Assembly: GCF_001182045.1 (NCBI RefSeq)
Contig: NZ_CVTY01000003.1
Span: 1-32,343 of the forward strand
DNA: 32,343 nucleotides
From: Dakarella massiliensis
GTDB lineage: Bacteria; Pseudomonadota; Gammaproteobacteria; Burkholderiales; Burkholderiaceae_F
Reading direction: 5' to 3'
Below the pieces are notes generated by a model. The model saw only the letters and a program-made list of their open reading frames with translations. It had not been told where the DNA came from and made no database searches. Shown one piece after another: positions 1,747 to 27,395 of the stretch (its first letter is position 1; the number at the start of each line of letters is the position of its first letter). A program made the position numbers and the translations under genes.

Positions 1747-2639
1747 TCAAGACTCCGCCAGGGCTGGGCAATCACCTTGCCCGACAGGCCCTGGCCTCGG
1801 CTTCCGGATTTATCCGGAAAGACCAGAATCGAGGTTTCACCTTTCGTCTCAACAACGGCATCGCCCCGCGCTTCAAGCGCAGCGGCATCCTTTGGATCAA
1901 TCTGTGCTTCGACCACAACCTCGCCGCGCAGATTCACGATCCCTCTGAGACCAACCGAACAGACCTGGATGCCGCTGTATTTGCCATAGCTGATGCTTTC
2001 ATGCTGATGACCGTGAAACAGCCACTTCACATGAAGATCCATTGCCAGCCGGTCAATCGCGGCGAAACCCTTCCGATGGCAGGACGGCGCCTCATGCGTC
2101 ACGAGGATATCGGCGTGCTGACGGGACAGGTTTTCATAGACGGATGGGAAAATAGAGGACCGGTGACGTCTCGGCAGCCCCCCTCTCCACGTGTTGTTTT
2201 TTCCGACCCGGTGCAGGAAGGCTCCAACCGAGGCATAGTTCGGCTTTCCGTCCGGCATCCATATCTGCCCCCGGAACACGCCTCCAAGCCCGGCAATCCG
2301 AACCCCCTTCACATTGCCGACACGGCCGTGCAGGTTATGTGCCGCCAGCGGGCTCTTCCAGAGATTGTCATAAATCGCGTCAGAGTCGGTATCGTGATTC
2401 CCCGGAATCCACCAGATTTCCGTAAATGCCATGGCTTCGGCCAGCACTTCCTCAAGCGGCTTTGATGGCTGAAGATCTCCGAGAATCACCATGGCCGCCG
2501 GCTTATAGTCTCTTGCCGCGGACAGAATCTGGGAAAACTCTCCATGTGGATCGCCGCAGAAAAAGATCTCCGGCAGCTCCTGCTTCTTTCTCTGTTTCTG
2601 AGGACGGTGTCCGTGACGGCGTTTCTGCTCTTCTGTCAT
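1716..2639 (-). CDS. Calcineurin-like metallophosphoesterase
   Basis: This 307-residue protein has the metal-binding signatures of the calcineurin-like phosphoesterase superfamily: GDPHG (29-33), GDLQ (54-57), GNHD (80-83), VTHEAP (180-185) and GHQH (210-213). These coordinate a dinuclear metal centre that hydrolyses phosphate esters. The N-terminal 20 residues are rich in Lys, Arg and Gln and come before the domain. There is no signal peptide, so it is probably cytoplasmic. Its ATG overlaps the stop of the upstream WYL-type regulator in an ATGA junction, so the two are probably translationally coupled. The substrate cannot be told; nucleotides or phosphoproteins are possible. The 3' end overlaps moeA tail to tail. 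Confidence 0.85.
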   Translation of the reverse strand: MTEEQKRRHGHRPQKQRKKQELPEIFFCGDPHGEFSQILSAARDYKPAAMVILGDLQPSKPLEEVLAEAMAFTEIWWIPGNHDTDSDAIYDNLWKSPLAAHNLHGRVGNVKGVRIAGLGGVFRGQIWMPDGKPNYASVGAFLHRVGKNNTWRGGLPRRHRSSIFPSVYENLSRQHADILVTHEAPSCHRKGFAAIDRLAMDLHVKWLFHGHQHESISYGKYSGIQVCSVGLRGIVNLRGEVVVEAQIDPKDAAALEARGDAVVETKGETSILVFPDKSGSRGQGLSGKVIAQPWRSLDQTSNRPKKG

Positions 2640-3358
2640 GATGCGTTCTCCAGAAAAGCAGCGAGCCCTCTCTGCGATACGAAATGAGTCCGGGTCTGAA
2701 GCTCTCGGGCTGACATGATGCGATCAACCGGAAGCAGAGCAAGCGCGGAAGCCTCATGCATCCAGACAGCAAGCAGCCAGCCGATTCTGCGGGAAATCAA
2801 CCGAAGCGGGGAAATTTCAAGCGAACGGACGCCTGGCGTCACGGAAACCGAGAGACGACGCTGAGAAACCAGGGCATGCCCCACGGTTTCAAAAACGCCG
2901 GCATCCGGAAGCGATTCCGGTTCTTCCTCGAGAATCACGCGTTTCAGAAGCTCTTTCCTTTCTCTGTCACCAGAGCCGAGCTTCATATAAATCCGGGCAA
3001 GTTCCGCCCGTGCCTCTGTCTCAGTAAGACGAGAAAAGGCACCGCTGTCTAGCAATCGGCGAAGCGACTTATAGCCGGCGAGAAGGACCGGCAGTTCAGA
3101 GGGCGAAAACCAGAGATGCGGAAGCGCCGCTTCCGCAGGAACACGGGCCGGCTCTCCGCTGCTCTCACTTCCATAGCGGTAGCCGTTCTTTTTCCGTGAA
3201 TAAACAATAGGAAAGCCCAGCTTCCCTCGCATATACTTCAGGTCACGCCTGAGAGTCGGAATACTGCTCCCAGTCGCACGGAGCAGACCCTCCAGGGGGA
3301 CGATGCCGTCCGACTGAATGGCCTGATCAATGCGCTGGACGCGCATGTTGAAATCCAT
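2636..3358 (-). CDS. HTH/WYL-domain transcriptional regulator
   Basis: The product has about 240 residues. An N-terminal winged helix of the DeoR/HTH_11 type (roughly 1-65, with a TLRRDLKYMR recognition-helix-like segment) is followed by a region resembling the WYL sensing domain (about 160-235, with SPLRLISRR and a later DRIM). WYL regulators often answer nucleic-acid or nucleotide signals. I chose the ATG at 3358 because GGGGG lies six bases upstream; a TTG at 3382 would add eight residues. The stop overlaps the start of the phosphoesterase, so the pair may form a regulator-effector unit. An imperfect inverted repeat upstream could be its own operator. Confidence 0.75.
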   Translation of the reverse strand: MDFNMRVQRIDQAIQSDGIVPLEGLLRATGSSIPTLRRDLKYMRGKLGFPIVYSRKKNGYRYGSESSGEPARVPAEAALPHLWFSPSELPVLLAGYKSLRRLLDSGAFSRLTETEARAELARIYMKLGSGDRERKELLKRVILEEEPESLPDAGVFETVGHALVSQRRLSVSVTPGVRSLEISPLRLISRRIGWLLAVWMHEASALALLPVDRIMSARELQTRTHFVSQRGLAAFLENAS

Positions 3359-3407
3359 CAAGGACCCCCAGCAACGGATCAAGGGGCACGAGGCCCATCG
3401 ACCCTTA

Positions 3408-3435
3408 ATTCTTAAGATTCTTTGATTATAAGAAT
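3408..3435 (-). promoter_or_regulatory. Candidate promoter/operator of the WYL regulator
   Basis: A seven-base inverted repeat, ATTCTTA (3408-3414) and TAAGAAT (3429-3435), flanks a perfect -10 box TATAAT read on the minus strand (3425-3430). A further copy of AGAAT lies between the arms. No good -35 box is seen at the right distance. The overlap of the repeat with the -10 would suit autorepression. The evidence is sequence shape only. Confidence 0.4.
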
Positions 3436-3466
3436 ATTGCGGGGATTCTCGTGAAAAACTGCGCTT

Positions 3467-4093
3467 TTACTGACGGAGAATTTCCGCCCCTTTCGGAGGA
3501 CGGAATTCAAACGCTGAGCTGCTGATTGAAGGATTCTTTTTCATATCAGACATATGAAGCGTAATCGTCTGTCCGAACGAATCTTTAAGCGTCATCGCGG
3601 CAGGAAGACCATCCCGGAATCCGATGCGAATATCAGTGAAACTCGTATCGTGCAGCTTAGGCACTGCGTCGATCCACTCAAGCCCATCCTTCGTACCGGC
3701 ATCCTTCACCGTGAAATCGCGCCGGAAATCATTGTTTCCGAAAAGAATGGCAGCCGGGCTTGAAGGCATGGAGGAAGCAATTGCCTTCACCGTTACCTGT
3801 CTCAGATCCGGATCCCAGACAGAAATCGTCCGGCCGTTGCAGTAAATGCCCTGCTCGTAGGGCTTTTCATAATTCCAGACAAACTTTCCCGGTCTCTGGA
3901 ATTTGAATACCCCGGACATGGTCTGCCCGGTCTTTCCCTTCCGGTCTGCGGTCACCTGGGAAAAAGAACCGCTCGCGGAATGCGTCCCCTTCAGGAACGC
4001 CGCAAGCTGCTCCGTTCCGGAGGCCAGCGAAGGAATAGAAAAACTTCCGAGAAGCAATGCGGAGGCAAGCGCCGCACACGCTTTTTTTTGCAT
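3467..4093 (-). CDS. lolA: Outer-membrane lipoprotein carrier protein LolA
   Basis: This is a periplasmic chaperone that carries lipoproteins from the LolCDE complex to LolB at the outer membrane. The product has about 208 residues. A typical Sec signal (QKK, then a hydrophobic stretch ending SLASG) is followed by the LolA core: GSFSQ, then PGKFVWNYEKPYEQ, a SVWDPDLRQVT segment, and a C-terminal FEFRPPKGAEIL. The ATG at 4093 gives the cleanest signal peptide; a TTG at 4108 directly after the upstream stop is also possible. It follows ftsK and the FtsK-like gene in the same direction, matching the common ftsK-lolA order of betaproteobacteria. The usual next gene, rarA, is absent. Confidence 0.93.
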   Translation of the reverse strand: MQKKACAALASALLLGSFSIPSLASGTEQLAAFLKGTHSASGSFSQVTADRKGKTGQTMSGVFKFQRPGKFVWNYEKPYEQGIYCNGRTISVWDPDLRQVTVKAIASSMPSSPAAILFGNNDFRRDFTVKDAGTKDGLEWIDAVPKLHDTSFTDIRIGFRDGLPAAMTLKDSFGQTITLHMSDMKKNPSISSSAFEFRPPKGAEILRQ

Positions 4094-4108
4094 CTGGTTC
4101 TGTCCCAA

Positions 4109-4837
4109 TCAATAGTGAAGCCTGACGGCCTCTTCTTTCTCCTCAACATTCCTGTAAAGGAGTTCGCCGTCGGAAAGCGTCTCTGCCCCAACCGCCATCA
4201 GCGCCATGACAGAATCACGGCGGCTCGGCACCCGGAGGCAGACACGATCACCCACTTCAGCTTTCAGGAGCGCCGGCAGTCCTTCGGGAGCCGGATTCTG
4301 CGTGCAGACATACGGAAGCATGCCGCAGGCTCTTCCATACCGCGCCGCATAGCAGAGCTTATCGAGGAAAGTGTGCCCAAGACGGGATACCGTCCCCGGA
4401 AGATCTTCAATGAAGAACATCCGGAAAGGCAGCAGATCTCGCCCCGCAGAAGCGGACGCCGCGTTGTAATGCGGGAGGTTATTGGATCCAGCCTCATGCA
4501 TCAGGTCAAAGCGGCGGTTCTGTTCCTCGACAAAGGTTTCAAGCTGAGAAAAAATCTCATCCGGTTCGGAAACCACGGTCACATCCTTCCGTCCCTCGGC
4601 CCAGGCGGGCAGCGTCTGACCGGGCCAGATGAGCTCGGCGTTTCCGATGCACTCCTGATGGAAAAGACTCTCCAGCTGAGCCGATGCGAGCGCCCGCAGA
4701 GCCTCCGCGTCAGAGCCCGAGGCGATGATTCCATGGCTCTCATGAAGAGCCAGCGGCCAGACGGCGCCGGAATCGGTCCGCCCAAGCACGAGCCTGAAGC
4801 TGTATCGGTTCAAATCTACCTGAGAAGGTTCTGTCAT
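4109..4837 (-). CDS. FtsK/SpoIIIE-like protein with degenerate ATPase motifs
   Basis: This 242-residue protein can be lined up by eye with the motor domain of the FtsK encoded just upstream. LVLGRTDSG matches LALGKDIAG. NRRFDLMHEAG matches NRRYSLMRRVG. The C-terminal stretch from VPSRRDS through MAVGAETLSDGELLYR matches VVTRYDS...MGEPGAENLIGNGDMLFR. The catalytic motifs are lost: Walker A (GTTGSGKS in FtsK) is replaced by SGSDAEAL, and the Walker B segment VVVDELADL by FFIEDLPGT. There are no membrane segments and no gamma domain. The gene lies 48 bases after ftsK and immediately before lolA, in the same direction. I infer a non-hydrolysing paralogue, perhaps a regulator or structural partner of FtsK. 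The frame is intact, so it is not an obvious pseudogene. Confidence 0.7.
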   Translation of the reverse strand: MTEPSQVDLNRYSFRLVLGRTDSGAVWPLALHESHGIIASGSDAEALRALASAQLESLFHQECIGNAELIWPGQTLPAWAEGRKDVTVVSEPDEIFSQLETFVEEQNRRFDLMHEAGSNNLPHYNAASASAGRDLLPFRMFFIEDLPGTVSRLGHTFLDKLCYAARYGRACGMLPYVCTQNPAPEGLPALLKAEVGDRVCLRVPSRRDSVMALMAVGAETLSDGELLYRNVEEKEEAVRLHY

Positions 4838-4885
4838 ATTGCAAATTTCCGTTACGGTTGATGAGAGACTGCGCAGAGTCTCTGG

Positions 4886-8373
<3,488 letters not shown>

Positions 8374-8410
8374 AATCGCAACACCGTCCGGTTAGGTTTA
8401 AGGCATCAGA

Positions 8411-9085
8411 ATGACAACACTCAGCAGTTTTCAGGATCTGAAAAAAATTGGCAAGGAGCTTGAGGAGAAAGCCCGCGCCGCAGAGGAAGAGCGCAAGCGC
8501 GCCCAGGCTTTGAAAGAAAAGCAGGCGCGTGACGCCCAGACGTTTGCGTCAGCCATGTCCAATATGGGCGTGGAGCCGATCCGGACGAAAAAGCGTGCGG
8601 AGCTTCCTCACCCGAAACCCGCGCCGATTCCGCGTCAGACCCAGGCTGAGCATAAGGCAGTGCTTCAGGCTTCCATCTCGGACGATGTTGATCCCCTCAC
8701 CTTCCTGCAGAGTGAGGATGGCTGCTGCTTCTGGCGGGACGGTCTGCCGCCGGATATCTGCAAAAAACTGCGCCGCGGTGACTGGACTGTGCAGAACCAT
8801 ATTGATCTCCACGGTCTTCGGGTGGATCCGGCGCGGGAAGCCGTCATGCAATTCCTTAAGGCCTCGCAGAAATCCGGAGCCCGCTGCGTCCGTATCGTGC
8901 ATGGGAAAGGGTATGGAAGTGAGGGCGGCCACTCGGTGCTGAAGGAAAAGGTGCGTCGGTGGCTGAAGCAGTGTGACTGCGTAATGGCGTTTGCCGAAGC
9001 CCAGGAAATAGACGGCGGATCCGGCGCCCTGATCGTGCTTCTGAAGGGAGTCGCGCACGCACCGTACTCGGCTCCGAGACCGTAA
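8411..9085 (+). CDS. Smr-domain protein (possible endonuclease)
   Basis: The product has 224 residues. The first 45 are charged and helical, probably a coiled coil (repeated EE/KR-rich segments). The C-terminal Smr domain (about 128-215) carries IDLHG (131-135), HGKG (164-167) and GGSGAL (202-207), the three hallmarks of the MutS2/Smr family. Stand-alone Smr proteins of proteobacteria include SmrA and SmrB; SmrB cleaves mRNA at collided ribosomes. The LDLHG-type motif associated with nuclease activity is present as IDLHG. The gene follows trxB closely, a pairing also seen in other betaproteobacteria. Assignment to the SmrA or SmrB subtype is not attempted. Confidence 0.88.
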   Translation: MTTLSSFQDLKKIGKELEEKARAAEEERKRAQALKEKQARDAQTFASAMSNMGVEPIRTKKRAELPHPKPAPIPRQTQAEHKAVLQASISDDVDPLTFLQSEDGCCFWRDGLPPDICKKLRRGDWTVQNHIDLHGLRVDPAREAVMQFLKASQKSGARCVRIVHGKGYGSEGGHSVLKEKVRRWLKQCDCVMAFAEAQEIDGGSGALIVLLKGVAHAPYSAPRP

Positions 9086-9104
9086 GGACGGATACCGTCA
9101 GAAC

Positions 9105-9857
9105 ATGCTGCTTTTCTCCATTATCGCGGCCTGCCTTCTTGCGACCGTCATTGCGATTGTCACAGCGTATTCGCTGAACGGCCGCATTCTGGATCGCTGG
9201 GGCGCAGGTCTCTCCTGCGTTTCCACCGGTCTTCTCCTTACACTCGCCTTCACTCACCTGCTGCCTGAGGCGTTCGAGCACGCCGCGGAGCCCCGTCATA
9301 TCGGCATCGCGCTCTGGGCAGCCTGCGTCCTGCTTTTTACGCTTGAGCAGATTTTCGATCTGCATCACCACAGCCACGGCTGCGAGGAGCCGATGGCCGG
9401 CTCTCTCCGGATCCGCGGGGTCTGGCCGATCGTGATCGGGGACTCGCTGCATACGTTTACGGACGGCATCGTGATCGCGAGTTCGTTTCTTGTCTCGCCG
9501 CACCTCGGCTGGGCCATTACGGCGGGCATTCTCCTTCACGAGCTGCCGCAGGAGGTCGGTGACTTTGTGCTGCTCACCCGCTCCGGACTCAGCCGGGAAA
9601 AAGCCTTCCGGCTGCTGCTCCTTGCGGGCGCCTCTGCTGCAACCGGCGGCCTTCTCGGCTACCTGGTTCTTGACTGGATCCGCGGGATGCTCCCCTATGC
9701 GCTCGCGCTGTCCGCGGCAAGCTTCCTCTACATCTCCATGTGCGAACTGATTCCGAGGCTCGCGGTGGAGGGAGGCGGACACAGAGCCTTCCGGAACCGC
9801 ATTCTGCTTTTCGGACTGGGTTCAGTCATTGCTTTCCTGATCGGGCTCGAACACTGA
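9105..9857 (+). CDS. ZIP-family metal transporter
   Basis: This 250-residue membrane protein has about eight hydrophobic segments. The ZIP metal-site signatures are visible: HTFTDGIVIASSF in the fourth segment and HELPQEVGDFVLL in the fifth. A His-rich loop (LHHHSHGCEEP) lies between segments three and four, as in ZIP importers. Zinc or another divalent metal is the likely substrate, moved into the cytoplasm. The start follows the Smr stop by 19 bases; a short GACGG-ATA-CCGTC hairpin lies in that gap and no strong ribosome site is seen. A terminator directly after the stop ends the trxB-smr-zip run. Confidence 0.87.
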   Translation: MLLFSIIAACLLATVIAIVTAYSLNGRILDRWGAGLSCVSTGLLLTLAFTHLLPEAFEHAAEPRHIGIALWAACVLLFTLEQIFDLHHHSHGCEEPMAGSLRIRGVWPIVIGDSLHTFTDGIVIASSFLVSPHLGWAITAGILLHELPQEVGDFVLLTRSGLSREKAFRLLLLAGASAATGGLLGYLVLDWIRGMLPYALALSAASFLYISMCELIPRLAVEGGGHRAFRNRILLFGLGSVIAFLIGLEH

Positions 9858-18126: not shown

Positions 18127-19707
18127 ATGAATTTCAACCGCAGAAATCTGCTTAAGGGCGGTGCTGCCGCCGTCGCGTCCCTTCCGTTTGCCAGCGCTAT
18201 CGCGAAACCCTATTCCAAGGACATCCACTGGGATAAGGAAACCGATGTTCTCATGGTCGGCTACGGCGGAGCCGGCGCCTGTGCCGCTATCACAGCGCAT
18301 GACGCGGGCGCGAAGGTGCTGATCGTCGAAAAGATGAAGGAGGGCGGCGGCAACACCGCGGTTTCCTCCGGCGGCTTCATGATCCCGAAGAACGAAGCTG
18401 ACGCTCTCACCTATCTCAACGCGACGTATGACTTCGCGGATTCGGAAAAGGATCCTGAACTTCTCAAGGTCTTCTGCAAGGAGATCATGGGCGTGAAGAG
18501 CTTTATGGAAGGGCTTAAGCCTGGCACCAAGCTCTGGGTTTACGGCCACGCCGGTTTCCAGAATCTGAAGGGCTGGGAAGCGATCGACAAGTGGCGCGTC
18601 CGCGGCAAGAAGCGCGGCGGCGACTGCCTCTTTGAACTCTACCGCTACGCCGTCGAAGAAAACCGCCACATTCCGATCATGCTGAACACCGCCGTGAAAC
18701 AGCTGATCAAGAACGGCGACGAAGTGGTCGGCGTTGTCGCGGTGGCTGACGGCAAGGAAATCAACATCAAGGCGAAGCGCGCCGTGATCCTGGCCTGCGG
18801 CGGCTATGAGTTTGATCAGGAGTCCCTCACCACTTTCGCCCAGGGCCACAAGTTCCACGCTCTCGGCAACCCGGGCAACACCGGTGACGGCGTCCGCCTC
18901 GCGCAGTCTGCCGGCGCCCGCCTCTGGCACATGACCGCCTACTCCTGCCCGCTCGGCTGCGAGCTCCCGGGCTGCAAGGCTGCCATGCAGATTCAGATGA
19001 TGTCGCCTTCCTTCATCTGGGTGGATCAGGACGGCAAGCGCTTCTGCGACGAGTTCTCGGCTGACGGCCACACCCGCGCCTACATGGTGAACCGTTTTGA
19101 CCCGATCACCCATCGTTACCCCTATATCCCCTGCTACGTGGTGTTTGACGATGTCGCGTTCAAGCGCGGCCCGATCGGCAGCATCACGTCCGGCTACTCC
19201 GTGAACCGTGAAGGCTACAAGTGGTCCTTCGACAATTCGAAGGAAGTCGCGAGCGGCGTGATCAAGAAGGCTGATTCCCTTAAGGAACTCGCCAAGATCA
19301 TCGGCGTTCCGGCTGAGAACCTCGAAGCCTCGGTGAAGAAGTGGAATGAAGACGTGAAGGCCGGAAAGGACACGCAGTTTGCCCGTCCGATCAACAATCC
19401 GCATAAGAGCGTTGTTCATATCGAGCGCAAGTCGGGGAGCATTGTTTCCGCACCGCTCGCTGAGAATGGCCCGTACTACGCGATCGTCCTCTACCCGACC
19501 ATGCTGAACACCCAGGGCGGTCCGAAGAAGGACGTGAACGGACACGTGATGACCCCGGAGAATAAGCCGGTGCCGCGTCTCTACGCTGCCGGTGAACTCG
19601 GTTCCATGTGGGGCAACATCTATCAGGGCGCGACCAACAACGCTGAGTGCATCGTCTTTGGACGTCTGGCAGGGCGCGCCGCTGCGGCGGAAAAGAGCTG
19701 GAGCTGA
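18127..19707 (+). CDS. Tat-exported FAD-dependent reductase (flavocytochrome c flavoprotein type)
   Basis: The product has 526 residues. The N-terminus NRRNLLKGG followed by a hydrophobic stretch is a twin-arginine signal. A Rossmann FAD motif GYGGAG lies at 45-50, with VEKMKEGGGNT and SSGG after it, then the FAD_binding_2 fold with LYAAGELGS near the C-terminus. It belongs to the fumarate-reductase/urocanate-reductase superfamily. Eye alignment with Shewanella FccA suggests that the fumarate-binding His (HTMGG region) and Arg (NRLGG region) are replaced (LNTQGG, ATNNAE), and that the Glu/Arg proton path is altered. Fumarate is therefore unlikely, and another unsaturated organic acceptor is more probable. 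Its electron donor should be the tetrahaem protein encoded just upstream. A terminator follows at 19787. Confidence 0.88.
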   Translation: MNFNRRNLLKGGAAAVASLPFASAIAKPYSKDIHWDKETDVLMVGYGGAGACAAITAHDAGAKVLIVEKMKEGGGNTAVSSGGFMIPKNEADALTYLNATYDFADSEKDPELLKVFCKEIMGVKSFMEGLKPGTKLWVYGHAGFQNLKGWEAIDKWRVRGKKRGGDCLFELYRYAVEENRHIPIMLNTAVKQLIKNGDEVVGVVAVADGKEINIKAKRAVILACGGYEFDQESLTTFAQGHKFHALGNPGNTGDGVRLAQSAGARLWHMTAYSCPLGCELPGCKAAMQIQMMSPSFIWVDQDGKRFCDEFSADGHTRAYMVNRFDPITHRYPYIPCYVVFDDVAFKRGPIGSITSGYSVNREGYKWSFDNSKEVASGVIKKADSLKELAKIIGVPAENLEASVKKWNEDVKAGKDTQFARPINNPHKSVVHIERKSGSIVSAPLAENGPYYAIVLYPTMLNTQGGPKKDVNGHVMTPENKPVPRLYAAGELGSMWGNIYQGATNNAECIVFGRLAGRAAAAEKSWS

Positions 19708-19859: not shown

Positions 19860-20597
19860 TCAGTTCCCAAACCACTTTCTGTAGATCTTCGCCGTTTCAC
19901 CGCTCTTCTCCATCTGGAGCAGCGTGCGGTTCAGCTGATCAAGCAGCTTCTTATTGCCCTTGCGGACGGCGAACGCGATTTCTTCCTTCGGGAAGCCGGT
20001 CTGCACTTCCACCATCGAGCGGGTACCGCGCTGCTTCAGGTAGTACTCGATCGCGGGCTTATCGGAAATCACCGCGACGCAGCCGCGGTTCTGCATTTCC
20101 AGAATATCGTCAGCGAGCGAATTGAAGGTCTTCAGTTTCGCACCCGGGATCGTTCTCGCGAGCTCAGCGCCGGCAGATGCGATTTCAACGCAGACAGTCT
20201 TGTTGCGGAGATCCTTTTCGCTCCGGATGGCATGCGCATCGGACTTATTCACGAGCAGGACCTGGGAGGAGTGATAAACCGGACGGGTAAAGTCGATCTT
20301 CTTCTGACGCTCGGGCGTAATCGTGAGACCAGAGGTAATCAGATCAATGTTGCCGGTCATGACGGCAGGAATCAGGCCGTCGAGCCCCATCGGGGCGAAT
20401 TTGATCTCATAGCCCATGTGCTTCGCCGCGGCGCGGATCAGGTCAATATCGTAACCGACCAGCTGCTTCGTACGGCCGTCAACAAATTCGAACGGCTGGA
20501 AGACCGGCTGCGTACCGACATTCAGCACCGGGAGGGCGAGAGCTGAACCCGCGCAGGTCATGGCCGCTGCGGCCGCAATCAGAAATTTCTTCAGCAT
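19860..20597 (-). CDS. Periplasmic amino-acid-type substrate-binding protein, copy 1
   Basis: This 245-residue protein has a Sec signal peptide (cleavage near SALA-LP) and one SBP_bac_3 domain: LNVGTQPVFQPFEFVD, VGYDIDLIRAAAK, the ligand-contact ITPERQKKIDFT and the ISDKPAIEYYL segment. Such proteins bind polar amino acids and feed an ABC permease. No permease or ATPase gene is in this window, so it is an orphan that must share a transporter or act as a sensor. It is close to copy 2 (for example both have AAAKHMGY, EVQTG and AFAVRKGNKKLLD). There is no lipobox, so it is soluble. Confidence 0.9.
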   Translation of the reverse strand: MLKKFLIAAAAAMTCAGSALALPVLNVGTQPVFQPFEFVDGRTKQLVGYDIDLIRAAAKHMGYEIKFAPMGLDGLIPAVMTGNIDLITSGLTITPERQKKIDFTRPVYHSSQVLLVNKSDAHAIRSEKDLRNKTVCVEIASAGAELARTIPGAKLKTFNSLADDILEMQNRGCVAVISDKPAIEYYLKQRGTRSMVEVQTGFPKEEIAFAVRKGNKKLLDQLNRTLLQMEKSGETAKIYRKWFGN

Positions 20598-20719
20598 TGA
20601 GTATTCTCCGTATCAATAGCCTCTTTTGGGCTTTTTGGCGATTCCTTGAGGAATCTTTGATTGGTTGGGTGGAAAAACGGAACTCATCACGCGTTGCGTG
20701 AGCACGGAAAGGACTACAG

Positions 20720-20760
20720 AAAAACTGAAGAAGCCGGTGCCTTTCCGGTCCCGGCTTCTT
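20720..20760 (-). terminator. Terminator after binding-protein copy 2
   Basis: AAGAAGCCGG (20728-20737) pairs with CCGGCTTCTT (20751-20760). On the minus strand it is followed by GTTTTTC. A second small hairpin CTGCCG/CGGCAG (20761-20777) lies between it and the gene. The remaining part of the gap up to copy 1 shows a short GATTCC/GGAATC hairpin and the copy 1 ribosome site. Confidence 0.75.
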
Positions 20761-20796
20761 CTGCCGCCTTCCGGCAGCGAATGGATTCAGGACGCT

Positions 20797-21540
20797 TTAC
20801 TTCGCGGAGCTGAACCACTTCTGATGAATCTTAGCGGTTTCGCCGCTCTTATCCATCGCGGCCAGCGCCTTATTGAAAGCATCGAGCAGCTTCTTGTTGC
20901 CCTTGCGGACAGCAAACGCCATCTCTTCCTTCGGGTAACCGGTCTGAACTTCAACCATGTTGCGGCCGCCGCGCTGCTTCAGGAAGTACTCGACAACGGG
21001 CTTATCAGCGATAACTGCCGTGCAGCCGCGGTTGTTGAGCTCAAGAATCGTGTCAGGAAGGGTATTGAAGGCCTTCACCTTTGCGCCCGGAATCTTGCGG
21101 CCGAATTCAGCGCCGACCGTGCCGATCTGCGCGCAGATGTTCTTGCCCTTCAGGTCCTTTTCACTCTTCACGGAGCCGGCATCAGGCTTGTTGACGAGAA
21201 TCACCTGAGTCGACTGGTAAACCGGGCGGGTGAAATCAACCTTCTTCTTACGTTCAGCAGTGATCGTCATGCCGGCAGCGGCGGCATCGATATTATTTGT
21301 CATCAGAGCCGGGATCAGGCCGTCAAACCCCATATTGACGAACTTCACCTGGTAACCCATGTGCTTCGCAGCGGCACGGATCATGTCCATATCGTAGCCA
21401 ACGAAATCCTTCGTACGGGCGTCCACGAATTCAAACGGCTGGAAGGTGGGCTCGGTACCGACGGTCAGCACCGGAGCCGCCAGCGCGGAACCCGCACAGG
21501 CCATGGTTACGGCAGCTGCCATCACTAGATTCTTAAACAT
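20797..21540 (-). CDS. Periplasmic amino-acid-type substrate-binding protein, copy 2
   Basis: The product has 247 residues with a Sec signal (SALA-AP) and an SBP_bac_3 domain: LTVGTEPTFQPFEFVD, VGYDMDMIRAAAK, FDGLIPALMT, ITAERKKKVDFT and IADKPVVEYFL. It is more similar to copy 1 than to copy 3, pointing to a recent duplication. Differences lie in the ligand region: copy 1 has SGLTIT where copy 2 has AGMTIT, so binding preferences may differ. It has its own leader and terminator, so it is probably a separate transcription unit. No transport partner is encoded nearby. Confidence 0.9.
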   Translation of the reverse strand: MFKNLVMAAAVTMACAGSALAAPVLTVGTEPTFQPFEFVDARTKDFVGYDMDMIRAAAKHMGYQVKFVNMGFDGLIPALMTNNIDAAAAGMTITAERKKKVDFTRPVYQSTQVILVNKPDAGSVKSEKDLKGKNICAQIGTVGAEFGRKIPGAKVKAFNTLPDTILELNNRGCTAVIADKPVVEYFLKQRGGRNMVEVQTGYPKEEMAFAVRKGNKKLLDAFNKALAAMDKSGETAKIHQKWFSSAK

Positions 21541-21639
21541 TCAATTTCTCCGTGTCATCTGAACCCGCTTCTGAGAGCGGGCTTCTCTTATAGAGAGCTT
21601 CCACAGAACCGGGAAGCACAGGGGGTAAAAGTTGTTGAA

Positions 21640-21694
21640 GCAGGGGAACTGCCTTGCTCAATCCGACTGAAGATACTCGGAAACATTCCCCTGC
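21640..21694 (-). terminator. Long-stem hairpin after binding-protein copy 3
   Basis: GCAGGGGAA (21640-21648) and TTCCCCTGC (21686-21694) are exact reverse complements enclosing a smaller CCGA/TCGG stem. It lies just downstream of copy 3 on the minus strand and is followed there by a T-rich but interrupted stretch. It may be a terminator or an mRNA-stabilising 3' structure. Confidence 0.4.
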
Positions 21695-21712
21695 GCAAGA
21701 TGGATCTGGATC

Positions 21713-22456
21713 TTAGTTGTTGAACCACTTCTTGTGGATCTTCGCGACCGTGCCGTCCTTCTGGAGGGAGACAAGCGCGCTGTTCAGAGCGTTCAGCACC
21801 TTCTTGTTGCCCTTCTTCACGGCAAAGCCCCAGTCTTCCGTCGTGAGCTGGGTCGGAAGCTCATGGAAATAGCGGCTCTGACGGCTTTCCTTCAGGAAGT
21901 ATTCAATCACGGGCTTATCAGCCACCACGGCGTCGCAGCCGCCGTTATGGAGTTCCATCATGGCTTCGGCGGCGTTATTGAACGTACGGGCTTTCTTGCC
22001 GGAAATCTGCTCCGCCTTCAGCTGACCGGTCGTGCCCAGCTGCGCGCAGACCTGCTTGCCCTTGATGGCGACGGGAGTCTTATAGGCCGCGGCGTCCTTC
22101 TGACGGACCACAGCAACGAGACCGCCCTTGAAGACCGGCACCGTGAAATCGACCTTCTTCTTACGCTCCGGGGTGATCGTCATGCCGGAGACACCGACAT
22201 CCACTGTTCCGGTCATCAGAGCCGGAATAATGGCGTCAAACCCCATCGACTGAACGGAAATGTTGTAACCCGCCTTCTTGCCGGCAGCGTTGATCAGATC
22301 GATCTCATAGCCCACGAACTGCTTCGTCTTGACATCAACGAATTCAAAGGGCGGGAAGGTCGTTTCGGAACCGACGCGGAGAGTCGGAGCCGCAAGGGCG
22401 GAAGCGGTATAAAGGGAAGCCATGACGGCGGCACAGACCGCAAATTTTTTCAGCAT
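21713..22456 (-). CDS. Periplasmic amino-acid-type substrate-binding protein, copy 3
   Basis: The product has 247 residues with a Sec signal (SALA-AP) and an SBP_bac_3 domain: LRVGSETTFPPFEFVD, VGYEIDLINAAGK, SGMTITPERKKKVDFT, GGCDAVVADKPVIEYFL and AVKKGNKKVLNALN. It is the most divergent of the three and keeps the canonical TFPPFEF and SGMTITPER sequences of amino-acid binders, so it may be closest to the ancestral function. The ribosome site AGAGGAG is strong. Like its neighbours it lacks adjacent permease and ATPase genes. Confidence 0.9.
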   Translation of the reverse strand: MLKKFAVCAAVMASLYTASALAAPTLRVGSETTFPPFEFVDVKTKQFVGYEIDLINAAGKKAGYNISVQSMGFDAIIPALMTGTVDVGVSGMTITPERKKKVDFTVPVFKGGLVAVVRQKDAAAYKTPVAIKGKQVCAQLGTTGQLKAEQISGKKARTFNNAAEAMMELHNGGCDAVVADKPVIEYFLKESRQSRYFHELPTQLTTEDWGFAVKKGNKKVLNALNSALVSLQKDGTVAKIHKKWFNN

Positions 22457-22988: not shown

Positions 22989-23606
22989 TCAGCTGTTCAG
23001 GTGCCGGTCATCACGCGGCGCCACACCAAACAACCGCCGGTAATCATTCGTAAGCTGGGAACTGCTTGCGTAACCCACAGCTCCTGCGGTGAAACCGACT
23101 GACTTCCGGTCTGCCATCAGAAGGCGCCGTGCTTCATAGAGTCTCAGGGTTTTCTGATACTGGATCGGTGAGTATCCGGTCAGCGCCTTGAAGTGGCGAT
23201 GGAAACTGGCGGATGACATCCCGATAGAGGATGCGAGCGTTTCCACAGAAAGATTGGTACGGAAATTTTCCTTGATCACCGCGATCGCGTGCGAGATCTG
23301 CTGCAGGTGCTGGCTGCCGGCGCAGATACTCCAGAGCCAGGTGCCGGCCTCGCCGAGAAGAAGTCTCGCGTGCATTTCCCGGATCAGAATCAGCGCGAGG
23401 AGCTGCACAGCCTCCGGCTTATCAGCGATATCAAAGAGCCGCAGGGCATTTTCTCCGAGATCTGCCGAGCAGGGAAAAACGGCGTAAGGAGGCGTATCAC
23501 CGGTGCTCAGCGGTTCACGCCGGGGAGCGAGTGACAGCGCGAGCTCCGTGAGAAGCGCCCGGCGCTTCAGTTCCGTCAGGACTTCTGTCAGATGCCTATC
23601 TTCCAT
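22989..23606 (-). CDS. Short AraC-family regulator, YqhC-like, lacking most of its sensor domain
   Basis: The product has 205 residues from the ATG with AGAGG just upstream; an in-frame start at 23648 would add 14. The C-terminal AraC double helix-turn-helix (about 105-200) is complete: VETLASSIGMSSASFHRHFKAL and GYASSSQLTNDYRRLFG. Residues 45-105 (ALRLFDIADKPEA, IREMHARLLLGEAG) match the end of the AraC_N type sensor domain of regulators such as E. coli YqhC. Members normally have about 300 residues, so the cupin-like N-terminal half, roughly 90 residues, is missing, and the DNA upstream is AT-rich promoter with no trace of it. It is divergent from the P460-flavodoxin operon, which it probably controls. 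Confidence 0.82.
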   Translation of the reverse strand: MEDRHLTEVLTELKRRALLTELALSLAPRREPLSTGDTPPYAVFPCSADLGENALRLFDIADKPEAVQLLALILIREMHARLLLGEAGTWLWSICAGSQHLQQISHAIAVIKENFRTNLSVETLASSIGMSSASFHRHFKALTGYSPIQYQKTLRLYEARRLLMADRKSVGFTAGAVGYASSSQLTNDYRRLFGVAPRDDRHLNS

Positions 23607-23627
23607 TTTTCCTCTGCGCTTCGTTTT

Positions 23628-23757
23628 CTGTCTGATGAAAATCATCATACGCCTTTTCTCTTAATTTCTTTCTTTATTGATATTTTTTAGCAGATAAATG
23701 AGGAAAACCGAACAATTTGCGACCCGATCCGGCAATAAGATTTTCTGCATCAGACAG
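23628..23757. promoter_or_regulatory. Divergent promoter region with mirror-image motif
   Basis: CTGTCTGATG (23628-23637) and its exact reverse complement CATCAGACAG (23748-23757) sit almost symmetrically, 21 bases before the AraC start and 23 bases before the P460 start. Outside the core, both read on into an AAAATC. The first copy overlaps a second palindrome, TGATGA-AAA-TCATCA (23633-23647). The arrangement suggests that the AraC protein binds one site at each promoter. The middle is AT-rich; no clean -35/-10 pair was found. Confidence 0.55.
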
Positions 23758-23780
23758 GCAGACAGTTATCAGGAGACAGA

Positions 23781-24257
23781 ATGGAATTACGAAATTTATT
23801 CCCAGTTGCCGGCGCCCTTGGTGCCGCCTTTTTCCTCATCGGCAGCGCTGCCGCCGCTCCGTCACTTCCGGCCAGTCTGAACGGATTTGTTCACTACAGC
23901 ACGTCGAAATACGGCGGCAAAATCAGTGACAAGTACGTTCAGAAAACGAGTATCCAGGCACTGCAATCCGGAAAGAATCTTCCCTACGGCACGGCGGTCG
24001 TTGGAATTGAGTACCGGGATCAGAACGGAAAACGCGGTCCTGTGCTTCGCTACATCATCATGGAAAAGGTGAGGAACAGCGGGAAGGATTACCCGGCCTC
24101 TGTCCGAAACGGAGACTGGGAGTTCGCATCCTATACTCCGGCCCGCGCCCTGATCACGAATGATCCCGTCACACGGTGTCTTGCCTGCCATAAGAGCCAG
24201 GCCCAGAGTGACTATCTTTTCGGCCTGAACGAAATGAAGAGCTTCAAGCTGAAGTAA
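23781..24257 (+). CDS. Exported cytochrome P460-family haem protein
   Basis: The product has 158 residues. A signal peptide (about 1-26, ending SAAAA-P) is followed by a P460-like domain: HYSTSKYGGKISDKYV, a GTAVVGIEYRD strand, RYIIMEKV, NGDWEFASY, and one C-terminal haem site CLACH (133-137). P460 proteins of ammonia oxidisers act on hydroxylamine, but the wider family in other bacteria has no fixed role, and the crosslinked lysine cannot be confirmed by eye. It would be periplasmic. The ATG follows AGGAG at good spacing. It is the first gene of a tight four-gene operon whose products all appear to be exported. Confidence 0.82.
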   Translation: MELRNLFPVAGALGAAFFLIGSAAAAPSLPASLNGFVHYSTSKYGGKISDKYVQKTSIQALQSGKNLPYGTAVVGIEYRDQNGKRGPVLRYIIMEKVRNSGKDYPASVRNGDWEFASYTPARALITNDPVTRCLACHKSQAQSDYLFGLNEMKSFKLK

Positions 24258-24270
24258 GGATGATCTGACC

Positions 24271-24876
24271 ATGAAACGAAGAACTCTGATCAAGGGTGCC
24301 GCAGCAGTCGGTTTCAGTCTCCTCTCAGGAACCGGTTTTGCCGCCGCACCGAAGAAAAAAATTCTGGTCGCCTATTTTTCCCGGGCCCGCAGCATTTCCC
24401 GCGGGATGGATGCGATCACTTACGCCACGCCCTGGGTTGGCAATACGGCAGAAGCTGCCCGCGTTATCGCTCAGACACTGAATGCCGATGTTCACGAAAT
24501 TGTGACGACAGAAAAGTATCCCCTGCTTCACCGCGAAAACTCACGTATTGCCGAGCAGGAAATGAAGAGTGACGCGAGACCGGGCATTGCCCCCTCAAAC
24601 CTCTCACTGGACTCTTACAGTGTGGTCTTCCTGGGATTCCCGATCTGGTGGTACCGGGAGCCCATGGTGATCCGGACATTTCTGAGCCGCTATCAGTGGA
24701 AAGGCAAAACGATCATCCCCTTCTGCACGTCGCTTGAAGTGGATATTCCTCAGGCCCGAAGTGACATCATGAAGCTCGCGCCGGGAGCCGCTGTCCTGGA
24801 AGGCCGCCGGTTCGCGACCGAGAACGCGAATCTCGCTTCTGAAGTGAAATCCTGGGTTCAGGGTCTCCATATCTGA
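24271..24876 (+). CDS. Tat-exported flavodoxin-like protein
   Basis: The product has 201 residues. The N-terminus KRRTLIKGA plus a hydrophobic stretch ending GFAAA is a twin-arginine signal, consistent with export of a folded, FMN-loaded protein. The flavodoxin fold follows: ILVAYFSR (31-38), the phosphate-binding GNTAEAA (57-63) displaced by an insertion of about 18 residues after YFSR, and GFPIWWYREP (122-131) around the flavin. Most flavodoxins are cytoplasmic electron carriers, so an exported one needs a periplasmic donor, possibly the haem protein encoded 13 bases upstream. Its partner and substrate are unknown. Confidence 0.85.
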   Translation: MKRRTLIKGAAAVGFSLLSGTGFAAAPKKKILVAYFSRARSISRGMDAITYATPWVGNTAEAARVIAQTLNADVHEIVTTEKYPLLHRENSRIAEQEMKSDARPGIAPSNLSLDSYSVVFLGFPIWWYREPMVIRTFLSRYQWKGKTIIPFCTSLEVDIPQARSDIMKLAPGAAVLEGRRFATENANLASEVKSWVQGLHI

Positions 24877-24893
24877 GGCCAAAGGAAAAGGAA

Positions 24894-25313
24894 ATGAAAA
24901 CTGCAGCCCTGATTTTCGCGGCCGCGCTGGGGATAGCTTCGCAGATCGCGTCCGCCGATACGCCGGTTCAGATGGTAATTAACGGGAAAGCCTATACCGC
25001 CACAGTCACTGACACACCGGAAGGCCGGAACTTTCTCGGCATGCTGCCGCTTCACGTCAGAATCAGCCGCGGAGAGCATGACTTCTGCGGCGATATGCCG
25101 CCTCTCACGCATTCAGAATCCAGTGTGAAAAACGGCTTCCGGAACCGCGACATTGCCTATTGGGTCCCGGGGCATGACTTCGTGATTTTCGTGAACGGCG
25201 AAGAGCACTCTTCCTCTATCGGCGGAATTGTTTACCTGGGAAAGCTCCAGATCCCGCAAAATGATCTCCTGAAGCTCTCCGGCACGCTCGACGTCAGAAT
25301 CCTTAAGAAATAA
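24894..25313 (+). CDS. Exported cyclophilin-like-fold protein, copy 1
   Basis: The product has 139 residues with a Sec signal (cleavage near IASA-DT). The rest resembles the small beta-barrel Cyclophil_like family: VQMVINGKAYTATVTD, FLGMLPLHVRIS, DIAYWVPGHDFVIFVN and a final IGGIVYLGKLQ. This family often neighbours flavodoxins and oxidoreductases, and its activity is unknown; despite the fold it is not an established prolyl isomerase. The start lies 17 bases after the flavodoxin stop with AAAGGAAA in front. It is a paralogue of the next gene with clear divergence. Confidence 0.75.
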   Translation: MKTAALIFAAALGIASQIASADTPVQMVINGKAYTATVTDTPEGRNFLGMLPLHVRISRGEHDFCGDMPPLTHSESSVKNGFRNRDIAYWVPGHDFVIFVNGEEHSSSIGGIVYLGKLQIPQNDLLKLSGTLDVRILKK

Positions 25314-25322
25314 GGAATCCCT

Positions 25323-25760
25323 ATGAAACGCAGAAATTTTCTTCAATTACTCGCAGCCTCGGCTGCAGGAGCCGCCCTCACCATGAGTTCCGCTGAAGCC
25401 AAAAACGCCGGCCGCCGCATCCGGATTACCGCTGGAAACCGCACCTGGTACGCCACACTGGATGACAACGCCACCGCCCGCGCGCTGATTGCCAAACTGC
25501 CGCTCACCCTTCCTCTCGAAGATCTCTACGGGCGTGAACTCTGTTACCGGTTCCGCGACGCGCTGCCGGCGAACGAAGTTTCCTACCGCGGTTACGAAGT
25601 GGGTGAAATCGTCTACTGGCCGCCGCGGCACAGTTTCGTGATTCTCTATGCGCAGAACGGAGAGCATTTCGATATGCAGCCGATCGGCCGCATTGAGAAG
25701 GGCGTGGAGGAAATGGGGCGTGTTGGCTCTATGAAGGCCACAATCACGCTGGACAAGTAA
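25323..25760 (+). CDS. Exported cyclophilin-like-fold protein, copy 2
   Basis: The product has 145 residues. The N-terminus KRRNFLQLLAAS is a likely twin-arginine signal ending near SAEA-KN. The domain follows the same plan as copy 1: IRITAGNRTWYATLDD, ALIAKLPLTLPLEDLYGRELCYRF, GEIVYWPPRHSFVILY and PIGRIEKG. It keeps more of the family pattern than copy 1 (LDDNATARALIAKLPL). One copy appears to use Sec and the other Tat, so copy 2 may fold or load something before export. It is nine bases after copy 1 and last in the operon, followed by a terminator. Confidence 0.77.
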   Translation: MKRRNFLQLLAASAAGAALTMSSAEAKNAGRRIRITAGNRTWYATLDDNATARALIAKLPLTLPLEDLYGRELCYRFRDALPANEVSYRGYEVGEIVYWPPRHSFVILYAQNGEHFDMQPIGRIEKGVEEMGRVGSMKATITLDK

Positions 25761-25788: not shown

Positions 25789-25828
25789 AAACCCGCCTGA
25801 TCCAAAAGGATTCAGGCGGGTTCTTTTC
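25789..25828. terminator. Bidirectional terminator between convergent operons
   Basis: AACCCGCCTGA-TCC (25790-25803) pairs with GGA-TCAGGCGGGTT (25808-25822) with a one-base bulge and an AAAA loop; CTTTTCCC follows. A further perfect hairpin GGAGCGGG/CCCGCTCC (25839-25862) lies next to the end of the minus-strand flavoprotein gene. Confidence 0.82.
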
Positions 25829-25874: not shown

Positions 25875-27395
25875 TTACATGCCCTTCTTCTGCTGATCGA
25901 TGATGTTCTCGACAGCAATACGGGCGGAGTTAATGGCGAAGGAAGAAGCCGTGCCTTCACCGATCCTCAGGTCATAGGAGTCACCGTACACACCGCCGGC
26001 GTCATGGCCCAGAGCGTAAAGGCCCGGGATCACCTGATCCTTGGCATTCACAACCTGCAGGTTCTCAGTCACCTTGACACCGTTCAGAGAAGCGAGCGTG
26101 TGGAGCTTGCCCTTCACGATATAGAACGGAGCCTTGGAGACAGCGCGGATGTAGTACTTATCCTTGCCGAACTCGGTGTCCTTGCCCTGCTTGGCAAACT
26201 TCGTCATATCAGCCGCAGCGCGCTTCAGGTTGGCCGCATTAAGACCGGCCTTCTTGGCCACTTCCTCAATCGTGTTGCCTTCAAACACATCGCCGCGCTT
26301 CACGCCATCCTGCAGCAGCTTCGGCAGTTCCTTCGCCACCTGGCCGCGCTGAATGAAGTTGCCGCAGGGGTTGAGGTAACCCTTGCCCTTCGTGCCGAGT
26401 TCCTTCACGAACGCGTCATCGAAGAAGAGGTAGGTCCATTCACCGGAACGCAGAATAGCGTTCGAAGCCACCGGCCAGTCAAGCGTCAGCTGCTCGTTGA
26501 AGTAGCGGTTGCCGGCTCCATCCACATAAAGCTGGCTCTGACGGAAGATAGCGCGCAGTTCCTTATTGGGGCCATTGCAGATCGCTTCGCCTTCCAGCGG
26601 ATTGAAGGCGCCGTTGATCATCATCGGGCCCATGTTGTCGCCCACTGCACCAGCGGACATTGCCATGCGGATACCGTCACCGGTACGTCCGGGAGCGCCG
26701 GACGGAACCAGATCCTGTCCGGTGTACTTCACCACCATGTCCTTGTTGAAGTTATAGCCGCCGGTCGCAAGCACAACGTACTTCGCGTTGACGGTCACCT
26801 TCTCACCGGTCTTCAGATCCTTAGCGACGACACCGGCCGCGCGGCCGTCCTTCATGATCAGGGTTTCGCCCGGAGTCTGCAGCAGCAGCGTACCGCCCTT
26901 CTTCTGGAAGGTATTCACCATAGCTGCCGGGAGAGAGCCGGCATGCGGGTAGATGTGCCAGGTCAGGTTCTTGTTGCCAGCCCAGACGGACTTCACTTCC
27001 TTCCAATGCACACCATGATCCCAGACCCACTGAATGGTCTTCGGGGATTCTTCAATGAAGCGCTTCACCAGAGGAGCATTGATGCGCCAGTGATGGTATT
27101 CGCCCATCCGGTTGAATTCCTCAAGCTTCGTCAGCTTCACGCCAGCCTTCTTCTGCATGAAGGATTCAACAGCGAAGGTGCCTTCCATGAAGTTGCCGGC
27201 GCCGCCCGCAAAGGCATTCTTTTCCAGAAGAACCGTCTTCAGACCGGCTTCCTGAGCGCTAGCGGCAGCAACCGTACCGCCCGCGCCGGCACCGACCACA
27301 ACCACATCAGCGTTGAGCACGCGGTCTGCCATCGCAGGGATTGCCATCGCCATAGCGAGGGTGGCAACGGAAATGGAACGAATGAATTTCTTCAT
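25875..27395 (-). CDS. Sec-exported FAD-dependent reductase
   Basis: The product has 506 residues. A Sec signal (cleavage AMA-DR) is followed by the FAD motif GAGAGG (35-40), LLEKNAFAGGAGN, YVVLATGGYNFN, and a C-terminal GLYALGHDAGGVYGD. It is in the fumarate/urocanate-reductase superfamily but differs from the other flavoprotein here. By eye it keeps a His (KLHTLASLNG) and an Arg (YDLRIGEG) where FccA binds the substrate carboxylates, but the FccA catalytic Arg position appears to be different (NEQLTLD). No haem domain or cytochrome gene is adjacent. It may share the tetrahaem protein encoded near 17.8 kb or another donor. GAGGAG lies eight bases before the ATG. LysR is divergent. Confidence 0.87.
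   Translation of the reverse strand: MKKFIRSISVATLAMAMAIPAMADRVLNADVVVVGAGAGGTVAAASAQEAGLKTVLLEKNAFAGGAGNFMEGTFAVESFMQKKAGVKLTKLEEFNRMGEYHHWRINAPLVKRFIEESPKTIQWVWDHGVHWKEVKSVWAGNKNLTWHIYPHAGSLPAAMVNTFQKKGGTLLLQTPGETLIMKDGRAAGVVAKDLKTGEKVTVNAKYVVLATGGYNFNKDMVVKYTGQDLVPSGAPGRTGDGIRMAMSAGAVGDNMGPMMINGAFNPLEGEAICNGPNKELRAIFRQSQLYVDGAGNRYFNEQLTLDWPVASNAILRSGEWTYLFFDDAFVKELGTKGKGYLNPCGNFIQRGQVAKELPKLLQDGVKRGDVFEGNTIEEVAKKAGLNAANLKRAAADMTKFAKQGKDTEFGKDKYYIRAVSKAPFYIVKGKLHTLASLNGVKVTENLQVVNAKDQVIPGLYALGHDAGGVYGDSYDLRIGEGTASSFAINSARIAVENIIDQQKKGM

Follow-up and report, generated by a model that had tools for sequence, protein, structure and literature searches.

The best-described proteins resembling the haem protein analysed here are the cytochromes c'-beta, NeCP-beta (PDB 7s5o) and McCP-beta (6hih), and the cytochromes P460, NeP460 and McP460. 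In the latter the haem is cross-linked to a lysine, Lys70 in NeP460 and Lys78 in McP460 according to an excerpt of PMC11928373, and lysine mutants of NeP460 are reported to be inactive in a section of PMC6427953. Peroxidase-like activity is reported in the former excerpt for the lysine-less NeCP-beta as well as for NeP460 Lys70Ala, and the roles of cytochromes c' are there regarded as still undetermined. As to gene context, two known arrangements are relevant, namely the YqhC-YqhD-DkgA system of E. coli and plasmid clusters of cytochrome P460 family, DUF4405, CMD, cupin, alpha-beta hydrolase and aldo/keto reductase genes, as in S. meliloti GR4 pRmeGR4a, Agrobacterium pusense, Pseudosulfitobacter and Peribacillus.

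Here, we show that a stretch of 32,343 nucleotides from Dakarella massiliensis (the window) contains an operon for redox proteins with predicted export signals, next to a regulator gene of YqhC type, and that this arrangement is kept in relatives (Table 1). The open reading frames lie where the original prediction had placed them, and the four operon genes are indeed separated by short gaps (13, 17 and 9 bases). Directly past the last gene stands a strong hairpin, which the consensus terminator scan did not list; the scan for promoters and terminators gave no excess over shuffled sequences, and found no sigma-70-like site in the divergent intergenic region.

Table 1. Features of the operon and its regulator, in window coordinates
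Feature	Position	Strand	Basis or remark
YqhC-type AraC regulator	22989..23648	-	Pfam HTH_18 and HTH_AraC; AraC_N matched from profile position 81 onwards
Single remaining copy of the 9-bp repeat CCGGGCGCT	23554..23562	-	Comparison with G002
Divergent intergenic region between AraC and haem gene, 132 bp	23649..23780	.	Regulator and operon promoters expected within
c-type cytochrome, P460/c'-beta fold, Sec-like signal, without P460 lysine	23781..24257	+	Pfam PF16694 Cytochrome_P460, 49.4 bits
Tyr44 codon, aligned with the distal capping position (Arg in NeCP-beta)	23910..23912	+	Alignment to 7s5o; table 2 of PMC11928373 (excerpt)
Gly75 codon, where cytochromes P460 have their cross-linking lysine	24003..24005	+	Alignments
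CLACH haem c attachment motif	24177..24191	+	Sequence; both Cys and His invariant in alignments A1 and A3
Flavodoxin_4 protein, Tat-like signal	24271..24876	+	Pfam, 91.8 bits
Cyclophilin-like protein A (Cyclophil_like2), Sec-like signal	24894..25313	+	Pfam, 58.3 bits
Cyclophilin-like protein B (Cyclophil_like2), Tat-like signal	25323..25760	+	Pfam, 97.3 bits
Hairpin then T-rich sequence, likely operon terminator	25790..25822	+	-24.5 kcal/mol, z -6.9 (stretch picked by eye)

Export was predicted from the N-termini by eye, the haem protein and cyclophilin-like protein A starting with Sec-like signals. The N-terminus of the flavodoxin, MKRRTLIKG, looks like a twin-arginine signal, with the Pfam TAT_signal profile reaching only E 0.07; likewise, that of cyclophilin-like protein B, MKRRNFLQL, is of twin-arginine type, its TAT_signal match (E 9e-4) falling under the profile's cut-off and its match to NCBIfam TIGR01409 just over. 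Both TatC and cytochrome c assembly genes are present in the genome. Exported flavodoxins seem little described, a phrase search of the open-licence literature having returned no paper on them; a broader search did list papers, and the one consulted among these describes no such protein.

The order AraC / cytochrome-flavodoxin-cyclophilin-like is kept in the sister species G002 and also, minus one of the cyclophilin-like genes, in G008, which belongs to another genus; the operon is therefore not a chance arrangement, and the conservation on which the original prediction had staked itself is found in both relatives.

The regulator had been described as resembling YqhC, which in E. coli answers reactive aldehydes. 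Its type is as claimed, for the G002 regulator aligns with E. coli YqhC over the sensor half and the HTH (28% identity over 289 residues); the half that would sense aldehydes, however, has been lost in the window's genome. The assembled window copy retains the HTH but no more than the end of AraC_N, its cupin (sensor) half being missing through a clean in-frame deletion of 276 bp relative to G002, which keeps that half and in which the lost segment is flanked by 9-bp repeats. As it stands, the window copy falls outside the YqhC-type regulators defined by an AraC_N sensor half plus HTH, and homologues suggest an ATG at 23606 as its start. Since the sensor half is gone, its response cannot be read from that of YqhC; such a regulator might be constitutively active, or else inactive.

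In sequence as in fold, the best PDB match of the cytochrome is the cytochrome c'-beta of N. europaea, 7s5o (Foldseek E 3e-8, TM 0.67, from a moderate model with pLDDT 71.7). The haem protein, originally called P460-like, shares superfamily, CXXCH and overall fold with the cytochromes P460 but is not one of them, as the lysine that defines these is replaced by Gly75; glycine also occupies this position in the four closest rows of the alignment, and Leu, Ile, Met, Val or Gly in the remaining rows, with lysine in none of the 22. The distal carboxylate is absent too, Ile92 standing at the position of NeCP-beta Ala109; incidentally, NsP460 likewise has no distal carboxylate. With its CLACH motif at the C-terminal end, a predicted P460-type beta fold and no cross-linking lysine, the protein shares these features with the cytochromes c'-beta, yet it departs from NeCP-beta and McCP-beta in having Gly where these have Met or Phe, Tyr or His aligned at the capping position, a short hairpin, and flavodoxin and cyclophilin-like genes in its operon. 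In a loop whose alignment is uncertain, the residue aligned with the distal cap is Tyr44 in the window, His in P0007 and P0008 and Arg in the other clade-I rows. Sequence comparison places the cytochrome in a separate clade, made up of c'-beta-like proteins without the lysine (clade I, one side of a branch with support 98/94).

Turning to its partners, the flavodoxin has the Flavodoxin_4 domain and the motifs GNT, GFPIWW and PFCTS, which we take to be FMN-loop motifs, and its model (pLDDT 90.3) has the FMN-bound structures 3klb and 3edo among its fold neighbours. Both cyclophilin-like genes match the Cyclophil_like2 profile over its cut-off, and for protein B no solved relative was found under E 0.19. 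The two families keep company: in the host's family a flavodoxin is found at 11 of 19 PF18050 loci against 1 of 20 control regions (Fisher p 4e-4), and flavodoxin-cyclophilin fusions occur (P0040 and P0131), as well as in 6 of the 80 flavodoxin loci listed by an unselective alignment scan of genome contigs, which reached at least 80 generic flavodoxin loci, has no control set for those phyla and serves to show the broad neighbourhood only. In two genomes of the same genus, flavodoxin and cyclophilin-like genes share a run with alcohol dehydrogenases that have 37-39% identity to E. coli YqhD, and an AraC gene is close by; the run of one of them, G001, also includes an aldo/keto reductase with 37% identity to DkgA. 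This company ties both families to the YqhC theme. The window operon itself differs from YqhC-YqhD-DkgA in encoding predicted exported redox proteins and no reductase, under a regulator without its sensor half. Among 26 records of cyclophilin-like plasmid loci four were opened; at three of them the gene is accompanied by CMD, cupin, hydrolase or aldo/keto genes, and that of Enterobacter huaxiensis has none of these annotated partners, which counts against tight linkage.

Around more distant clade-I cytochromes the partners are variable and comprise hydrolases, CMD, cupin, aldo/keto reductases, Tat flavodoxins and cyclophilin-like proteins. Among 11 loci of clade-I type that a search by cytochrome similarity brought up, 10 have at least one partner gene within the retrieved stretch, whereas outside the clade 1 locus in 10 does (Fisher p 3e-4). 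Many partners are annotated for carbonyls or electrophiles, namely aldo/keto reductases, SDRs, an alkene reductase, a quinone oxidoreductase, PaoA (in L213) and xanthine-dehydrogenase-type Mo enzymes, the Mo aldehyde/xanthine-type dehydrogenases lying near the cytochrome in L182, L185 and L214; most matches are on rhizobial plasmids. Many of these partners, not all, carry export signals: among those read, no signal was seen at the listed starts of 4 of 6 aldo/keto reductases, 2 of 3 CMD, 2 of 3 cyclophilin-like proteins and 1 of 3 cupins. A flavodoxin accompanies the cytochrome at 2 of the 9 opened plasmid loci and 4 of the 11 clade-I-type genome loci; cases in point are Pseudosulfitobacter, with Tat flavodoxin, aldo/keto reductase, cytochrome and DUF4405 in one run, and G732, with the run cytochrome-DUF4405-zinc alcohol dehydrogenase-Tat flavodoxin. 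The window operon shares with the plasmid clusters the lysine-less, short-hairpin cytochrome, partly exported partners and, in some of them, Tat flavodoxin or cyclophilin-like genes; it differs in having AraC instead of LysR and no DUF4405, hydrolase or CMD. By its gene content it is a compact form of the distant clade-I neighbourhood.

The original prediction held that no membrane donor is encoded here and that the donor is unknown. There is indeed none in the operon; the second point can be sharpened, for a DUF4405 gene follows the cytochrome at all five clade-I loci outside the host's family and adjoins it at all nine opened plasmid loci, which makes DUF4405 a candidate for the membrane donor that the window operon does without. 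It is absent at all five loci of the host's family. The only match elsewhere in the window's genome (C4:155580, 26.1 bits, cut-off 26.7) was rejected as donor because, as read from the sequences, it is a cytochrome b of hydrogenase type with hydrogenase genes next to it.

From the gene company alone, we favour, tentatively and well short of even confidence, the reading that the operon forms the reductive branch of a periplasmic system protecting against reactive carbonyls or peroxides. The flavodoxin would be loaded with FMN in the cytoplasm, exported by Tat, and exchange electrons with the cytochrome, whose open haem would react with a small oxidant or carry electrons, the cyclophilin-like proteins perhaps serving for binding or docking. 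In the more distant relatives the DUF4405 protein, with its four conserved histidines, would move electrons between quinol and cytochrome, and in the window's genome another quinol dehydrogenase, for example its one NapC-type protein, may stand in. Several points speak against such a defence: the peroxidase activity of NeCP-beta is tied to a distal Arg, whereas the window's subclade has Tyr or His; a flavodoxin is beside the cytochrome at only some loci and the partners are not all exported; and the hydrolases, CMD and xanthine-type enzymes fit catabolism equally well. A pathway breaking down some carbonyl, lactone or aromatic compound of plant or host origin, in which the cytochrome passes electrons from a periplasmic oxidation via DUF4405 to the quinone pool, would account for hydrolases, CMD and cupin, of which several bear export signals, for the Mo dehydrogenases and PaoA, and for the rhizobial plasmids; it seems rather unlikely, the window operon having no dehydrogenase, hydrolase or CMD and the regulators beside the cytochrome in the host's family being akin to YqhC, which in E. 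coli regulates a stress response.

We consider unlikely that the operon is a trap for NO (or CO), with the cytochrome acting as c'-beta does and its haem kept reduced by the flavodoxin, for the neighbouring genes point largely to carbonyl chemistry, Tyr or His aligns at the cap where the NO-binding McCP-beta has Phe, and the nine opened plasmid tables, incomplete by design, show no NO reductase or nitrite gene; in its favour are the nearest solved structure, the NO roles proposed for c'-beta in the excerpt of PMC11928373, and the non-polar residues at the aligned distal positions (Gly75 and Ile92). The truncated regulator may also mean that the operon is a decaying remnant on its way out of this genome, its donor gene lost, and the cytochrome of G007 is split into two open reading frames; this is quite improbable, as all four structural genes have intact reading frames with 95-98% identity to their G002 counterparts, the order is kept in G008, and the absence of DUF4405 is common to the family. 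Hydroxylamine oxidation by a true cytochrome P460, with the flavodoxin as electron acceptor, takes its support from the Pfam family name and deserves hardly any credence, being contradicted by the missing lysine and carboxylate and by the inactive NeP460 mutants.

The defence reading can be widened, in a form that we hold as doubtful, to an extracytoplasmic electron-transfer system common to Pseudomonadota and Bacillota, in which clade-I cytochromes, a DUF4405-quinone link and exported flavodoxins, cyclophilin-like proteins, hydrolases and aldo/keto reductases would disarm carbonyls before they enter the cell. In the window's lineage the donor would have been dropped, the flavodoxin taking its place as partner of the cytochrome, and the haem pocket remodelled (Gly75, Tyr44 or His), one genome's regulator having lost its sensor. 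The genes that recur around the clade, for Tat flavodoxins, carbonyl enzymes and a candidate membrane cytochrome, make the role of cytochromes c' testable, and suggest an exported counterpart, carried on plasmids by rhizobia and soil bacilli, of the carbonyl-stress genes of the cytoplasm.

In agreement with the claim that the system is undescribed, no account of such an operon was found in open-licence papers, nor of the clade-I neighbourhood, with queries for YqhC with flavodoxin, for flavodoxin, cyclophilin, CMD and cupin, and for DUF4405 with P460. Looser queries led to a paper on dehalogenase regions of Sulfurospirillum and to papers of a general kind.

The flavodoxin and cyclophilin-like genes of the Dakarella massiliensis operon travel together: 11 of 19 family loci of PF18050, the Pfam family of the cyclophilin-like genes, have a flavodoxin within the fetched stretch, versus 1 of 20 control regions (Fisher p 4e-4; the 19 loci hold 20 of 23 matches, the window's own two and that of G046 being excluded). 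Fusions of the two occur, and in two genomes of the same genus (G001, G004) a flavodoxin, a dehydrogenase resembling E. coli YqhD (37-39% identity) and a cyclophilin-like gene form a run near an AraC gene, the next gene encoding a DkgA-like reductase (37%) in G001 and a hydrolase in G004. In the window's genome, YqhC-like AraC genes adjoin three of the four flavodoxin places.

The reading frames and gaps seen directly place the AraC gene and all four operon genes where the original prediction had them, with gaps of 13, 17 and 9 bases within the operon and, after its last gene, a strong hairpin that runs into a T-rich tail in a stretch picked by eye. Neighbourhood comparison showed their order to be conserved in relatives: a genome of the same genus (G002) has AraC, cytochrome, flavodoxin, CypA and CypB in identical order, its proteins 95-98% alike, and another genus of the family (G008) has AraC and cytochrome-flavodoxin-CypB, one cyclophilin-like gene (CypA) fewer, the three structural proteins standing at 44-56%. 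A third lineage is represented by proteins P0008, P0024 and P0143, which probably lie on one contig because each shares the longest-contig value of 2183 bases. In two further genomes, a cytochrome of the same type adjoins the same kind of AraC gene in a different operon, namely cupin-CMD-cytochrome-hydrolase-Cyp (G083) and cupin-CMD-cytochrome-hydrolase (G069). At E 1e-3 the cytochrome matched in 9 of the 67 family genomes. Of 399 genomes drawn from the order, 1 matched at E 1e-20 (solely the window's own, G002 and G008 being absent from the matches); a draw of 398 from the phylum gave 5, own genome counted, and one of 398 centred on G732, searched with a wider profile, gave 10. CypB is 57% identical to a relative from an uncultured Sutterella.

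By sequence and predicted fold (model confidence moderate), the closest solved relative of the cytochrome is cytochrome c'-beta of N. europaea. Its description as P460-like holds for the fold but not for the defining residue: with key positions assigned from table 2 of PMC11928373, Gly75 occupies the place of the cross-linking lysine, which is found in none of the 22 aligned rows. The distal carboxylate position aligns with Ile92 and the distal capping position, in a loop of uncertain alignment, with Tyr44. The window's protein belongs to clade I, 12 lysine-less rows on one side of a branch with support 98/94. Within it, the subclade of the window, G002, G008, P0007 and P0008 has Gly at the lysine position and a Tyr or His cap throughout (5/5 each). 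Outside clade I, Gly is seen there once more, in G498. The remaining seven clade-I rows and the nine plasmid proteins, the latter read by motif and left out of the tree, all have an Arg cap (16/16), with Leu or Ile in place of the lysine. Separately, three lysine-less P460-fold domains outside clade I (loci L201, L202, L204) are fused to a C-terminal plastocyanin-like domain, its copper-type motif judged by look.

Clade I also keeps recurrent gene company. Among 11 clade-I-type loci, defined by cytochrome similarity (window, G002, G008, G083, G069, G007, G715, G746, two in G555, G732), at least one partner gene lies in the fetched stretch at 10, the exception being the broken cytochrome of G007, versus 1 of 10 loci outside clade I, an aldo/keto reductase 2.5 kb away (Fisher p 3e-4, to be read with caution, the partner profiles deriving in part from the compared loci). 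Pfam agreed with the profile assignments for the proteins scanned, and in 20 control regions the profiles match one flavodoxin only. At all five clade-I-type loci outside the family, a DUF4405 membrane protein lies directly 3' of the cytochrome, four histidines being common to the five.

In the plasmid collection, cytochrome searches matched 52 and 50 records; nine regions (6 Rhizobiaceae, 2 Bacillaceae, 1 Roseobacteraceae) were picked for annotation and spread among the matches listed (20 of each). DUF4405, already visible in the match listing for two of them, adjoins the cytochrome in all nine; LysR lies within the stretch in 8, alpha/beta hydrolase and aldo/keto reductase in 6 each, CMD in 4, cupin in 3, flavodoxin in 2 and cyclophilin-like genes in 1 (Peribacillus, with two).

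The role tentatively preferred for the operon is to form the reducing arm of a periplasmic system that would protect against reactive carbonyls or peroxides; its electron flow, cofactors, substrate and protein location I infer. Catabolism is a serious if rather improbable rival, and NO trapping, serious too, is less probable again. N-terminal signals are visible in the operon proteins, whose location is predicted from them, and the genome carries TatC and cytochrome c assembly genes; its one NapC-type quinol dehydrogenase, encoded elsewhere, is a possible stand-in donor. On plasmids, the S. meliloti GR4 and Pseudosulfitobacter flavodoxins have twin-arginine signals, and in Peribacillus lipoprotein-like signals on the cytochrome and one of the two cyclophilin-like proteins extend the extracytoplasmic pairing to Bacillota. 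Among the partners read, no signal stands at the listed start of 4/6 aldo/keto reductases, 2/3 CMD, 2/3 cyclophilin-like proteins and 1/3 cupins; these count against a wholly exported set.

The proposed resemblance of the regulator to YqhC holds for one half. The copy in G002 shares 28% identity with E. coli YqhC across 289 residues (E 8e-34), and that of the window aligns with YqhC's C-terminal 158 residues only; in this assembly, exactly 276 bp (92 codons) are missing relative to G002, where they are bounded by two copies of CCGGGCGCT, one of which remains in the window. The missing part is the cupin half, kept in YqhC, G002, G008 and G069.

Coordinates of features in the window, its genome (G000) and related loci
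Place	Position (strand)	Feature
Window	18127-19707 (+)	Second flanking flavoprotein; signal-like N-terminus, judged by look only
Window	19860-22456 (-)	Three tandem paralogous solute-binding proteins, 245-247 aa each; amino-acid ABC type by look
Window	22989-23648 (-)	AraC gene
Window	23781-25760 (+)	Operon
Window	25875-27395 (-)	FAD_binding_2 flavoprotein, signal-like N-terminus, 3' end facing operon hairpin; 311 bits to vinyl phenol reductase model, under its cut-off
L048 (G000 C7)	7079-9270	Tandem flavodoxins divergent from weakly YqhC-like AraC; C-terminal HTH seemingly out of frame
L050 (G000 C6)	5561-7403	Tat-type flavodoxin divergent from intact YqhC-like AraC (120 bits to E. coli YqhC)
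G000 C6	239475-239870	Fourth flavodoxin place; inner TGA, apparently pseudogene; adjoins LysR gene
L036 (G001)	534-8005	AraC near YqhD-like/flavodoxin/cyclophilin-like/DkgA-like run; possible cytochrome-free sister of window operon
L143 (G007)	789-1290	Cytochrome of same type split over two frames, partner genes none nearby; Thr at cap; excluded from tree
L141 (G083)	8310-9142	AraC gene adjoining cytochrome operon, split into two ORFs; second damaged regulator of this kind
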